A stretch of 58,308 bases of DNA from Bacteroidales bacterium. Its GTDB lineage: Bacteria > Bacteroidota > Bacteroidia > Bacteroidales > ML635J-15. The stretch is taken from the NCBI GenBank assembly GCA_016937855.1, contig JAFGVU010000092.1, positions 1-58,308 on the forward strand, in the 5' to 3' direction. A model generated the notes under the pieces. That model saw only the letters and a program-made list of their open reading frames with translations, searched no databases and had not been told where the DNA came from. Shown here piece by piece: positions 18,665 to 41,832 of the stretch; position 1 is the stretch's first letter, and every line of letters begins with the position of its first letter. The position numbers and the translations under genes are program-made.

Positions 18665-20065
18665 TTAAAAATCTTGCATAAACATTGGATCCCAAGGTGG
18701 TAACATTATAGGTTTTTGTGACATTAGTTTAAGGGTTTTTTCATCGATAAACTTTTTATTTACAACAACTCTGAACATGTATTCGTCAAACCATTCGTCG
18801 GTAAAAGTTAAATATCCGTTATGTCCATACGAAGCACCCCATGAGTTTTCAAATTGCCACTTAACAGTTTTGTCTTGTTCGTCGGTGTCAACAGCCATAA
18901 GCAGCATTGCATGAGATGAGCCGCTATCATAAGTTTTAATTCTTTCAGACTTATCCATACTAAAATCGATTCCTAGTAAAGATTCGAAATCATAATTGTT
19001 GATGTCAAGAGTGCCATCGTCTTTATTTAATTGTTTGCCAACATCGCATGAAGCATACATTGCTTCGTTGTTTTTAATGCTTTCGAGAGCAAAAACTTTG
19101 ATTTCATCCGAGGGTAAATTCAAATATCTCCAGTTTCGTCCTTCGAGCACATTGCGATCAAATTCGATTTCATAAACTTTGTAATATTCTCTTGTCGGAT
19201 CATTCATAAGCATTACATAATTATCGATGCTGAACTCCGGGAACATTTCTTTAAAAAAACTATTAGGAGTATATTTTTTGTAATCACCAATATTGCCTGA
19301 TTTGTCAACAAACCTATATTCAAACTCTGATGGCGGTTCTCCCAAAAACAAAACTAACATGCGATACATTTCAGACATCATTTCAAATTTAACATTTGCA
19401 ATGTCTTTTTCAGGTTTATTCTCGTTTTTCAATTTGTATAATTCCAAGCCATATTCGCGTAATTTGCGTGCAAGTAAACGGTTAACCCACGAAGTGTTTT
19501 CGCTATGGTAGGTTTCGGGCATTACCGATTTTGGAACAGCACCATACTTACTTACAATATTTGCAAAAGAATTCCAAACACCTCCATCACCTATGGGATT
19601 TTTAAACAGCCACTCGAGGGTTTTGTCTGTCATTTCTTTTTCGGAATTTAGCATTACAGCCTCAAGAAATAAATTTGATTTTTCAAGTAAATCCCAGAAA
19701 TAGAGATAGTTTGTCGAAAACTCAAAGGCGGAAAGGTCTTTGTTAGAAATAATTTCGGGACGTAAAGAGTTGAGTCCTGTAAACATCCAGCATCGACCCG
19801 AAGATTCCTGATTAGTAATTCCACTCACTTTAACTTTATATTTAAAGTTATGCTCCGATTTTCCGGAAATATCTCGATTTAATGCAAGCTTTTTAATTTC
19901 GTTGTTTGTGACAGCATTGCGAATCCCTTTATCGCTTTCCGCCTTTTTAGAATAGTCAGCTTTTAATCTGTTGATTGTCTGCTCATCAAGATTGCCAGAT
20001 TGTGCAAAAACAGAAACAGAAACAATGATTAGGTTAATCAAAATCAAAATATTCTTTATCATCAT
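18665..20065 (-). CDS. Exported C1 family cysteine peptidase (bleomycin hydrolase/PepC-like)
   Basis: 466 residues, the usual size for C1B enzymes. A signal peptide (residues 1-21, ending VFAQ) is unusual, since the classical homologues are cytosolic. The catalytic cysteine is in NQESSGRCWMF, the histidine in SSHAMLLMAVD and the asparagine in FENSWGASYGHNGY. C1B enzymes are aminopeptidases that trim small peptides. A periplasmic form in Bacteroidota probably serves peptide nutrition. It starts with two adjacent ATGs (20065 and 20062). No operon partner is close; asnB begins 10 nt after its stop and may share the transcript. Confidence 0.9.
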   Translation of the reverse strand: MMIKNILILINLIIVSVSVFAQSGNLDEQTINRLKADYSKKAESDKGIRNAVTNNEIKKLALNRDISGKSEHNFKYKVKVSGITNQESSGRCWMFTGLNSLRPEIISNKDLSAFEFSTNYLYFWDLLEKSNLFLEAVMLNSEKEMTDKTLEWLFKNPIGDGGVWNSFANIVSKYGAVPKSVMPETYHSENTSWVNRLLARKLREYGLELYKLKNENKPEKDIANVKFEMMSEMYRMLVLFLGEPPSEFEYRFVDKSGNIGDYKKYTPNSFFKEMFPEFSIDNYVMLMNDPTREYYKVYEIEFDRNVLEGRNWRYLNLPSDEIKVFALESIKNNEAMYASCDVGKQLNKDDGTLDINNYDFESLLGIDFSMDKSERIKTYDSGSSHAMLLMAVDTDEQDKTVKWQFENSWGASYGHNGYLTFTDEWFDEYMFRVVVNKKFIDEKTLKLMSQKPIMLPPWDPMFMQDF

Positions 20066-39022: not shown

Positions 39023-40582
39023 ATGATTTTTCTTGCAAATAGCACTTTTTTCTACATTCTGGTTTTTATAATTATCTACAACACAAGCTCTTTTCTTGTA
39101 AAAAACCGAACCTTATCTAACATTTTATTATTGCTAGGTTCTTTTGCTGTAATTGGAACAGTTTGCTCTATCGAATCAATAATTACAATAATTACTATTT
39201 CAACATTGGTTTATTTTGCAGGAAGAAATCTTAGTAAAAATAAAAGAAAATCGAAACTATTACTCGGAATTTACATCGCACTATTGGTAACTATTTTTGT
39301 TTTAAAAAATTATGAAATCGCCAAACTAAGTTTTATCAGTGCAATAGGCTTATCATATATCCTTTTTAGACTAATTCATTATTTAATAGAAAGTAAAACC
39401 GAAAAAATTGCAGAGTATAACCTGTTGAGCTTCATAAACTACATTATATTTTTTCCCACTTTTTTAGCCGGTCCAATCGACGATTATAATAATTTTAACT
39501 ATTGGACAAAACAGAAAAGAAACTCATACAAAATAAGCCTGATAAAAGCAGGAGGATTCAAAATTTTGCTTGGCGTTGTAAAAAAGTTCTTTTTGGTTCC
39601 GATAATTGTTAACTACTCAATGGATTTTTCGTTGTTTAATGATGTTGATGTTTGGCAACAAGGATTTGTTTACAGTGTTCTACTGTACTCTTTGTACATT
39701 CTCTTCGACTTTTCGGGCTATTCCGACATTGCTATCGGTACCGCATATTTAACCGGCATTAAAACTCCCGAGAATTTCGACAATCCTTATTTTTCGAAAA
39801 GTTTATCCATATTTTGGAAAAAATGGCACATGACATTCTCCAATTTTTTGTTTAAGTATATTTTCAAGCCTCTTGTTGTGGGAATGTCCAAAACATTTGC
39901 AAAAACACCGAGACTACTAATTACTTTTATCGGTTATATCATTACATTTATTATTTGTGGAGTATGGCATGGTAATACACTAAATTTTATTTATTGGGGA
40001 CTATTTCATGGTGTCGGGTTAATTCTTTTTAAACTATGGAATATTTATATTTATAAAAAGAAGTTCGAAGTAATAAAAGGGAGAATAATTAAAATCACAT
40101 ACAATATTCTGGCAATTGCGATAACATTTCTATTTGTTAGTTTTGGATGGTTTCTTTTTAATTATCAATCAAACGAAATAAATACAATTTTGAGAAACAT
40201 AGGCTCAAAAAATGATCAAAATATTAAAATAAATACAGTATTGTTAAACAAAACCCCAATAATAGAGATTGATTTTAGTAATAATTCGGGGCAATCTGTT
40301 GATATAGAATATCAGACTTGTGAAAGCGATTCGATTGTCAGAGCCTACAATATTCCAACAAATGAAAATGATTTGTATTACATTTATCCAATTACTACCG
40401 ATAAAACTCTTAGCCTAATAAGGGTTAGATCATCGGATGGAATTCAAAAAGGCAATTGGAACACAAAACTATTTTATCTCGACCAAAAAGATATAAAACA
40501 AAATTGCATCTCTGACTTTATTTTTGGTAAAATAGAGCCAATAAAGTCAATAGACAAAATACCACAATATGCTAACAGTTAA
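39023..40582 (+). CDS. DltB/AlgI-like MBOAT O-acyltransferase with C-terminal extension
   Basis: 519 residues with about eleven membrane segments. DltB/AlgI-type signatures are FDFSGYSDIAIG near residue 228, TPENFDNPYFSKSLSIFWKKWHM near 248-270 (given as two pieces TPENFDNP and FWKKWHM), and the catalytic histidine in CGVWHG (His316), with a second histidine in GLFHG. MBOAT proteins of this type move acyl groups across the membrane to envelope glycans. The core ends near residue 380. A further 139 residues, predicted extracytoplasmic and strand-rich, are not usual for the family. The gene overlaps the DltD-like gene by 14 nt. The four-helix gene upstream is on the opposite strand. Confidence 0.9.
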   Translation: MIFLANSTFFYILVFIIIYNTSSFLVKNRTLSNILLLLGSFAVIGTVCSIESIITIITISTLVYFAGRNLSKNKRKSKLLLGIYIALLVTIFVLKNYEIAKLSFISAIGLSYILFRLIHYLIESKTEKIAEYNLLSFINYIIFFPTFLAGPIDDYNNFNYWTKQKRNSYKISLIKAGGFKILLGVVKKFFLVPIIVNYSMDFSLFNDVDVWQQGFVYSVLLYSLYILFDFSGYSDIAIGTAYLTGIKTPENFDNPYFSKSLSIFWKKWHMTFSNFLFKYIFKPLVVGMSKTFAKTPRLLITFIGYIITFIICGVWHGNTLNFIYWGLFHGVGLILFKLWNIYIYKKKFEVIKGRIIKITYNILAIAITFLFVSFGWFLFNYQSNEINTILRNIGSKNDQNIKINTVLLNKTPIIEIDFSNNSGQSVDIEYQTCESDSIVRAYNIPTNENDLYYIYPITTDKTLSLIRVRSSDGIQKGNWNTKLFYLDQKDIKQNCISDFIFGKIEPIKSIDKIPQYANS

Positions 40583-41726
40583 AAAAATAATAAAATATAA
40601 ACTTTGGATAGCCTCAACAACAGCAATATTTGTTGCATTAGTAGTGATTCCTGCGTTGTTGTGCCTTATTGATGTTCCTCAGTCAAGTCACTTAAACCAC
40701 GAGTACTACCAATCTAGCAAGATAACAGTGCCCAAAGGGATAGATTTTAAAAATGCTGATTCTGTTGTTTACGACTTCCTAATGGATGTTAAAAGAACTG
40801 ATGGTATTATTATTCTTGGAACATCTGAGACCGCAAACTGGATGTCGGGCAAGAACTACTATAGTTTATTAAATCAGGACAGTGTGTTGAATAGAGATTT
40901 TTATGCTATTTCGGGCGCGGGACGATGTGCAAATATGTATATCCCGCTAATTTTAAAATTCCCAAAAGCATTTGAAGGTTTAGATATGATTTTTTACATC
41001 AACCCAACATACTGGCGGAAAGAACTAAACAAATTCGACAATGAATATTTTGAACGGTATGTTGATTTCAACTTAGTGCTTGAGATAAAACCTGAGGCCC
41101 AAAAACGAGATATTTATGATCCATTTATTAAATTAAGTCCTATTTTTTATGCAAATGCATATTCTAATAAGCTTGTTTGCGATTACCGAAGGCTGTTTCA
41201 AGAAAATCTTAATCATTTTTTAAACCCTAATCTAAAACCAGATAAAAATTTAAAAATTGCCAGTAAAACGAAAGGTAATTCTTCGCAAAAGATTAATATC
41301 GATAATTATTACACTCCTCAAGAACTTGAAACTGAACGAAAAAAAATAAATTTGGAATATAATGTAAGCGATTTGTATTTGGCAGATAACGATCCTTTTC
41401 CAAAAGTTGACACAAAAGTTACTTATCAAGATGATTTATTGCAAGCTTTCATCAGTTTATGTCAAGAATTTAGAATTAATTGTGTTTTTTATTTAGGACC
41501 CTATAACGAAATTTATTGCAAAAAAATGAATCCTGAGCATATTGACGATTATAGACAAACAATAAAAAACATAAAATCGATTTTGGAAAAAAACAATGTA
41601 AAATACATCGACGGAACATCCATATCGACAATAACAGGGACTTTTAGTGACAAACAACATATTTCGGAGTATGGAGCATATTTAACTGCATTACAAATTA
41701 AGGAGTACTATGAAAAAAACAATTAA
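40569..41726 (+). CDS. DltD-like SGNH-fold acyltransferase partner
   Basis: 385 residues: a membrane anchor (about 12-34), then an extracytoplasmic domain. ILGTSETAN carries a likely nucleophile Ser86 in a G-x-S-E context like the GSSE of DltD. The C-terminal FSDKQHISEYG gives D361-x-x-H364, matching the Asp-x-x-His spacing of DltD. The overall length also fits DltD. I infer that it accepts an acyl group from the MBOAT partner and passes it to an envelope polymer. Overall identity to DltD looks low, so family membership needs a profile or structure check. It overlaps its neighbours on both sides, which implies coupling. Confidence 0.75.
   Translation: MLTVKKIIKYKLWIASTTAIFVALVVIPALLCLIDVPQSSHLNHEYYQSSKITVPKGIDFKNADSVVYDFLMDVKRTDGIIILGTSETANWMSGKNYYSLLNQDSVLNRDFYAISGAGRCANMYIPLILKFPKAFEGLDMIFYINPTYWRKELNKFDNEYFERYVDFNLVLEIKPEAQKRDIYDPFIKLSPIFYANAYSNKLVCDYRRLFQENLNHFLNPNLKPDKNLKIASKTKGNSSQKINIDNYYTPQELETERKKINLEYNVSDLYLADNDPFPKVDTKVTYQDDLLQAFISLCQEFRINCVFYLGPYNEIYCKKMNPEHIDDYRQTIKNIKSILEKNNVKYIDGTSISTITGTFSDKQHISEYGAYLTALQIKEYYEKNN
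41700..41705 (+). promoter_or_regulatory. Strong Shine-Dalgarno site for the DltX-like peptide
   Basis: AAGGAG ends four bases before the ATG at 41710 and lies inside the end of the DltD-like gene. Strong sites like this are uncommon in Bacteroidota, so it supports translation of the small frame. Confidence 0.6.
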
Positions 41727-41832
41727 AGTCATTTATATTGCACTTATTACCTTGATTTTTATATCTGTAATCGTTTACATATTAGTGCAAAAAAATGCAC
41801 AAGATATTCCTTATATTTATTTGGAGTTTTAG
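41710..41832 (+). CDS. DltX-like membrane microprotein (40 aa)
   Basis: 40 residues: MKKTIK, then one hydrophobic helix (about 7-26), then a short outer tail ending PYIYLEF with the stop straight after. Gram-positive DltX proteins are equally small, have one membrane helix and end in a conserved motif of the form FIYxxF. From the dlt literature as I recall it, the motif's tyrosine carries the acyl group between DltB and DltD. This frame overlaps the DltD-like gene by 17 nt, has AAGGAG four bases before its ATG and completes a DltB-DltD-DltX set. The positive-inside rule places the C-terminus outside. It is short enough to be missed by automatic annotation. The main alternative is a chance small frame. 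Confidence 0.72.
   Translation: MKKTIKVIYIALITLIFISVIVYILVQKNAQDIPYIYLEF

Follow-up and report, generated by a model that had tools for sequence, protein, structure and literature searches.

The DNA analysed in this work (the window) comprises positions 1 to 58,308 of contig JAFGVU010000092.1, 58,308 nucleotides in all, from the draft genome of a Bacteroidales bacterium (assembly GCA_016937855.1; 4.44 Mb in 264 contigs, 95% complete and 3% contaminated). It contains a unit of three overlapping genes, which encode a DltB-like acyltransferase of the MBOAT family, a DltD-like SGNH protein and a DltX-like microprotein of 40 amino acids (aa) (Table 1). The MBOAT and SGNH genes overlap by 14 bases, and the SGNH and microprotein genes by 17 bases. 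An original prediction, made from the nucleotide sequence, had described this trio at positions 39023-41832; its coordinates, its motifs and the position of the AAGGAG string were all correct on re-reading of the sequence.

Table 1. Genes and features of the MBOAT-SGNH-microprotein unit
Feature	Coordinates	Strand	Characteristics
DltB-like MBOAT, 519 aa	39023..40582	+	His269 and His316 conserved; acyl-shuttle motif absent from its C-terminus
C-terminal extension of the MBOAT, residues ~395-519	40205..40579	+	Beta-rich, fibronectin-III-like (low confidence)
DltD-like SGNH protein, 385 aa	40569..41726	+	N-terminal helix; GTSE at 84-87 (Ser86); D361-x-x-H364
AAGGAG	41700..41705	+	Read directly; inside the SGNH gene, 4 bases 5' of the microprotein ATG (41710)
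DltX-like microprotein, 40 aa	41710..41832	+	Positively charged N-terminus; single hydrophobic helix; Tyr37 and Phe40 in the tail DIPYIYLEF

The assignment of the products as a DltB-like MBOAT, a DltD-like SGNH protein and a single-helix protein of 40 residues was confirmed by reading frames, sequence profiles and predicted folds. The MBOAT scores 93.2 bits on PF03062, over the cut-off, and 214.6 bits on the DltB model TIGR04091 (four relatives, 194-217), for which the cut-off of 375 is not reached. Compared with solved structures, its profile matches DltB only at E<=0.001 (two distinct sequences, E 3e-45), and the top three structural matches of its AlphaFold2 model (mean predicted local distance difference test score, pLDDT, 78) are likewise DltB (8jem_B, E 4.3e-16, template modelling score, TM, 0.76 by target length). 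His269 and His316 are invariant in 32 alignment rows, and the C-terminal extension has counterparts in two loci only (L096 and L097) among the members listed. The SGNH protein of the window scores 19.9 bits on PF04914 (DltD), under the cut-off of 22.7, while four relatives score over it (26.6-33.0 bits). Its profile matches one DltD only among solved structures at E<=1 (E 0.0067), and all 12 structural matches of its AlphaFold2 model (mean pLDDT 76) at E<=0.001 are DltD (four entries, TM about 0.5), including 3bma, which carries the title D-alanyl-lipoteichoic acid synthetase. Ser86, Asp361 and His364 are invariant in 14 alignment rows.

A search for the MBOAT in 100 related genomes gave a sharp split between 11 matches at E<=7.1e-84, the genome of the window included, and the next one at 2.3e-39. 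Each of the 11 strong matches has an SGNH frame beside it, along with a small frame of this type. In one of these genomes (G012; L096:4464-7264) the MBOAT and SGNH frames are interrupted and the microprotein is intact, as a result of either decay or assembly error. Scanning of a genome contig collection (84,980 species) with an SGNH alignment, a method that carries no information on the small frame, recovered 41 loci, all of them Bacteroidota by title: Bacteroidales, Marinilabiliales, Flavobacteriales, Crocinitomicaceae and Chitinophaga-named bins. These 41 named loci, 14 of which coincide with loci found earlier and are counted once, result from a scan by motif and represent a lower bound; with the window they make 42 units. 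The SGNH gene is preceded by an MBOAT gene in 41 of the 42, the exception being L136, where the contig begins within the SGNH frame. Judged by title, metagenome bins make up nearly all of the membership. Judged by two genome draws, the unit is rare and patchy in Bacteroidota, because the SGNH family was present in one of 395 genomes drawn phylum-wide, namely that of the window, and had eight full-length strong matches (the same genome included) among 393 genomes drawn order-wide, where 13 genomes matched at E<=0.001 and five weak partial matches were dropped.

A conserved microprotein gene

A frame of 36-40 aa ending in Y-x-x-F just past the SGNH stop codon is present in 41 of the 42 units; the contig of the remaining one (L126) ends inside it, so that this unit is not judgeable for the microprotein. 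The first automatic rule detected the frame at 36 of the 41 loci, and four more (L120, L130, L131 and L134) were added by reading the frames. By chance, the same detection rule was satisfied at none of 19,143 random positions and at none of the ends of 236 other frames of >=200 aa. The ratio of nonsynonymous to synonymous differences (pN/pS) is 0.25 when pooled over 9 pairs and ranges from 0.06 to 0.59 in 14 single pairs, a few doubly constrained codons being retained since 18 bases were trimmed at the 5' end and the overlaps reach 32; by this measure, the microprotein is under purifying selection. Its occurrence in 41 of 42 units, the pooled pN/pS and the lack of chance matches establish the small frame as a genuine gene. 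Of the refuting conditions set with the original prediction, the one based on sequence, namely absence of the small frame or of a conserved C-terminus from related genomes, thus came out in its favour.

In all 41 units with the microprotein its ATG lies 5' of the SGNH stop codon, with overlaps of 4-32 bases (the value of 120 bases read in L134 reflects a shifted SGNH frame), and translational coupling of the two genes is therefore likely. A Shine-Dalgarno-like string precedes the microprotein in just 12 of the 41 units and is not a conserved trait.

The extreme C-terminus is the best conserved part of the microprotein. Counted from this end, Tyr(-4) and Phe(-1) occur without exception in the 38 distinct sequences. 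These are not independent, as about half of them belong to a single rumen group, in which the tail reads CLYxxF. Ile(-8) is present in 37 of the 38 and Asp(-9) in 34. The tail is mostly acidic, and since the net charge is higher on the N-terminal side of all 38 sequences, it is predicted to face out of the cytoplasm. The proposal of a DltX-like partner to the DltB/DltD-like pair is upheld by the conservation of the microprotein, the invariance of its C-terminal Tyr and the DltB and DltD folds of the two large proteins.

Free and fused shuttle motifs in known systems

A C-terminal motif of the [F]xYxxF type (e.g. FIYFRF) is fused to all 23 AlgI-type MBOATs examined, which are those MBOAT matches that were recovered as loci (L016-L034), together with L001, L003, L138 and the MBOAT that follows the unit in L103. 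L001 and L003 are both of the other PF03062 MBOATs found in the genome of the window. No fused motif was found at the C-terminus of the unit-family MBOATs among the members listed, two of which (L096 and L134) have interrupted frames. The MBOAT family of the unit has the shuttle motif in trans, as a separate protein. In a tree of 59 MBOATs, the unit family (32 proteins), the 23 AlgI-type proteins and four DltBs each form one clade, with support of 100/99, 100/96 and 100/96, respectively; the tree program warns of long branches, and no branching order of the three clades is claimed. Within the unit family, the MBOAT of the window groups with that of a Crocinitomicaceae metagenome-assembled genome (MAG; L097, 100/99) rather than with its counterparts in most of the genomes listed under its genus. 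This placement suggests that the gene was transferred horizontally or that two old lineages exist. At one locus (L103:4775-8685), the unit is immediately followed by an AlgI-type MBOAT with a fused FIYFQF, so that the free and fused forms stand side by side.

With PatA-PatB and other AlgI-type systems the unit shares the acyl-Tyr shuttle motif, the combination of MBOAT and SGNH proteins and the absence of a dedicated carrier gene, and it differs in that the motif is a separate protein rather than part of the MBOAT. Another arrangement was seen on contig 10 of genome G007 (L138:3912-8906), where an AlgI-type MBOAT with a fused FIYLKF lies with a 305-aa frame (SGNH by eye), carrier-like and formyltransferase-like proteins and an AMP-ligase that scores 284.9 bits on the DltA model, in surroundings that look like a glycan cluster; this locus is possibly a carrier-fed example of the fused type. 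A link between absence of the AlgI 'PLGG' string from an MBOAT and feeding by a carrier was considered and dropped, as L142, L143 and L144 lack the string and, by a crude pattern, show no carrier; L138 has one.

What the unit shares with the Dlt pathway is an MBOAT of the DltB fold, an SGNH protein of the DltD fold and a microprotein that is encoded separately, has one helix and ends in a Tyr-x-x-Phe tail. The unit differs from it in lacking dltA and dltC, in the position of the microprotein gene, which is last, after the SGNH gene, and not first as in the Enterococcus casseliflavus operon, in its tail ([CYT][LI]YxxF versus FxYxxF) and in the clade of its own formed by the MBOATs. To our knowledge, teichoic acid is not known from Bacteroidota.

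Dlt machinery in a Gram-negative envelope has precedents, and the novelty that the original prediction saw in a Gram-negative module was overstated. Dlt-type operons are cited for Dickeya and Pectobacterium in the accessible portion of PMC5541007, and the Bordetella dra locus is cited as a Gram-negative case in that of PMC4448142. Two further sets were identified here, and both keep the AMP-ligase and carrier genes, which the unit lacks. A Klebsiella electrica plasmid (NZ_CP041250.1; L139:4700-8752) encodes, in this order, dltD, a DltX-like 40-aa "hypothetical protein" ending in FEYQKF, an MBOAT, an AMP-binding protein and an acyl carrier protein between insertion-sequence transposases, and an equally scoring MBOAT match was obtained on an Enterobacter cloacae plasmid. 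In a Bacteroidota MAG (G056, contig 250; L137:3125-7376), a Dlt-type operon in the order carrier-D-X-B-A encodes a carrier-like protein (19.5 bits on PF00550, just under the cut-off), a DltD (141.6 bits on PF04914), a DltX-like 49-aa protein ending in FVYQQF (18.1 bits on PF12459, under the cut-off), a DltB-like MBOAT alongside and a DltA-like ligase (432.6 bits on TIGR01734, cut-off 559.85); the stand-alone unit is likewise encoded in this genome.

Candidate donors and acceptors

No AMP-binding (PF00501) or PP-binding (PF00550) match was found on the contig of the window, and the best match to DltA (TIGR01734) in the whole genome reaches 48 bits against a cut-off of 560 (559.85), in agreement with the earlier statement that the window lacks DltA and DltC homologues. 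Among 25 chosen genomes, TIGR01734 matches above 75 bits, a threshold set after the scores were seen, occur in 5 of 15 with the unit and in 1 of 10 without it, none of them over the cut-off; such a match is absent from the other 10 genomes with the unit. A tblastn search with one adenylation-carrier protein, in flanks of up to 6 kb (shorter at several loci), gave a match at L099 alone among the 41 named loci; L099 and L064 denote one and the same contig. Because DltA and DltC are missing from the contig, the adenylation-carrier protein was matched at one locus of 41 and 10 of 15 genomes have no DltA-like match, the donor is probably not D-Ala-DltC, and a likelier source would be acyl-CoA or an acyl carrier drawn from general metabolism, such as that of fatty-acid synthesis.

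In the matched contig (L064:1406-4140), an adenylation-carrier didomain protein and a lipid-A-acyltransferase-like protein are encoded ~370 bases past the microprotein; this pair of proteins was not seen in the stretch of a relative of the same genus (L065). PP-binding domains were matched twice in the genome of the window, by an 86-aa frame on contig 126 and by one of 74 aa on contig 135, neither of them near the unit. The latter lies beside a short AMP-binding protein in a surface-sugar cluster (L155:4135-10328) that by eye resembles nonulosonate synthesis.

Clustering of 449 flanking frames from the 41 loci and the window recovered the SGNH protein from 40 sources and the MBOAT from 38, with every other cluster limited to at most 7. 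Two clusters of 7 correspond to the synteny of one rumen group, whereas clusters from 6 and 5 loci (long proteins), and some from 3-4, span lineages, for which joined domains may be the explanation. From these flanks, no neighbour gene appears to point clearly to the acceptor.

A proposed acyl-tyrosine relay

We consider it probable, by analogy with characterised systems, that the trio is an acyl-tyrosine relay of the DltB/DltD/DltX kind, fed by something other than D-Ala-DltC loaded by DltA. The three products would form one inner-membrane complex, which would move an acyl group, likely a short one such as acetyl, from a cytoplasmic thioester to an acceptor in the cell envelope. The MBOAT, with His316 as the catalytic residue, would load the acyl group by way of its pore onto Tyr37, near the predicted periplasmic end of the microprotein; from there this tail would swing to the SGNH protein and hand the acyl group to Ser86 of the putative triad Ser86-Asp361-His364, from which a surface glycan or lipid would be esterified. 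This order (donor thioester, His316, Tyr37, Ser86, acceptor) is inferred because the parts are the same in kind and arrangement as those of PatA/PatB and DltB/DltX/DltD. The genes, their order and the tail are conserved and the folds are predicted to match; the topology is deduced from charge, and the complex and its chemistry are modelled on DltX and PatA. As far as the accessible sections of PMC12148441 show, PatA acetylates the Tyr of its own C-terminal hexapeptide, PatB takes acetyl from such a peptide, and DltX is described as the same acyl-Tyr relay between DltB and DltD.

Several observations weigh against this relay or against parts of it. The FIYxxF likeness claimed for the tail holds for the Tyr and the last Phe and fails for the first Phe: position 1 of the hexapeptide is Cys in 19, Tyr in 17, Thr in 2 and Phe in none of the 38 distinct microproteins, which do not conform to a strict FxYxxF, and the relatedness of these sequences mentioned above reduces the force of the counts. 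Among Pfam families, DltX (PF12459) is the one touched by the most members: five of the 38 reach it at E<=1 (lowest E 0.0018), and all five matches lie, judged by E-value, under the curated cut-off of 25 bits. Three of the 38 touch an unrelated family (E 0.0076), and the microprotein of the window has no match to PF12459 and chance-level family matches only. These matches lend weak support to a kinship with DltX; for comparison, the E. casseliflavus DltX scores 57.6. No AlgI-type structure is among the 50 listed structural matches of the MBOAT, so these do not separate the DltB and AlgI kinds. Of the DltB residues in the DltC-docking helix named in the accessible part of PMC11035591, Arg317 corresponds to a nearly invariant Arg297 in the unit MBOATs, and Met302, Met309 and Lys312 are replaced. 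Finally, a carrier-borne aminoacyl donor is possible, because 5 of the 15 genomes with the unit (G007, G056, G230, G246 and G314) have DltA-like matches of 233-433 bits and an adenylation-carrier protein is encoded near one locus.

The last points bear on the best surviving alternative, a true D-alanylation (Dlt) system in which DltA and DltC encoded elsewhere load D-Ala on a carrier accepted by the MBOAT. It would account for the DltA-like matches in the five genomes and the adenylation-carrier protein at L064/L099; DltB and DltD are the leading structural matches of the MBOAT and SGNH models, the DltC-docking helix is of the same length in the unit's MBOAT family as in DltB, unlike that of AlgI, and the genome of the window has its two PP-binding carriers. 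We nevertheless regard such a system as unlikely, given the own-genome best of 48 bits for DltA against 560, the 10 of 15 genomes without a match above 75 bits, the scores of the window proteins under the TIGR04091 and PF04914 cut-offs, and the clade of unit MBOATs apart from the four DltBs (subject to the long-branch warning). The genome G056, in addition, carries a dlt-type operon plus the unit, which argues for separate jobs.

A second alternative retains the complex but makes the microprotein a mere assembly or stability subunit, which would hold the MBOAT and SGNH proteins together while the acyl group passes directly from the MBOAT to the SGNH protein. Scaffolding is a frequent role of short single-helix proteins, and the discussion in PMC11035591, in its accessible part, leaves the role of DltX open. 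A scaffold is hard to reconcile with conservation that peaks at the extreme C-terminus, with an invariant Tyr and last Phe, and with the same tail element being fused to AlgI-type MBOATs and acetylated in PatA, so that we give this alternative little credence. That the small frame arose by chance as an open frame where a gene ends, as its shortness, its overlap with a gene and the lack of a convincing family match for the window copy could suggest, is already refuted by its presence in 41 of 42 units across several orders, the pN/pS of 0.25 and the absence of matches at 19,143 random positions, and its probability is negligible.

The acyl-tyrosine relay proposed here would place the unit beside two known types of machinery. 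Judged by gene content and profile scores, it appears to fall outside Dlt proper, having no DltA or DltC and staying under the DltB and DltX cut-offs, and likewise outside the fused PatA/AlgI type, since the motif is not on the MBOAT; by analogy, it very probably works like both. According to the accessible text of PMC12148441 (2025), a separate DltX-like microprotein is tied to the carrier-fed Dlt pathway, and other MBOAT-SGNH pathways lack it and have the motif fused instead. Among the matches listed from the open-licence literature, no description of a DltX-like microprotein in Bacteroidota was found; genes of the size of dltX are easily overlooked in annotation, as stated in the available part of PMC5541007. 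A Dlt-like module in Gram-negative bacteria is already known and so is not the new point, which lies instead in a free DltX-like shuttle within a unit devoid of ligase and carrier genes, which is conserved by itself and has an MBOAT clade of its own and a modified motif. On balance, we incline to the view that the unit represents a third bacterial lineage of MBOAT-SGNH acylation, seen to date in Bacteroidota only, with a free acyl-Tyr shuttle microprotein and without a dedicated carrier system, and predicted to place an acyl group on a surface polymer.

If such a third lineage exists, the separation of the shuttle from the MBOAT would be independent of D-alanine and teichoic acid. The unit breaks the pairing of a free shuttle with carrier genes, the motif being free or fused irrespective of the donor type, and the device of acyl hand-over is seemingly not confined to D-alanylation systems. 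The 42 units are available for study of the fit between tail, pore and SGNH protein, and they point to an undescribed modification of the cell envelope in rumen, marine and other Bacteroidota.

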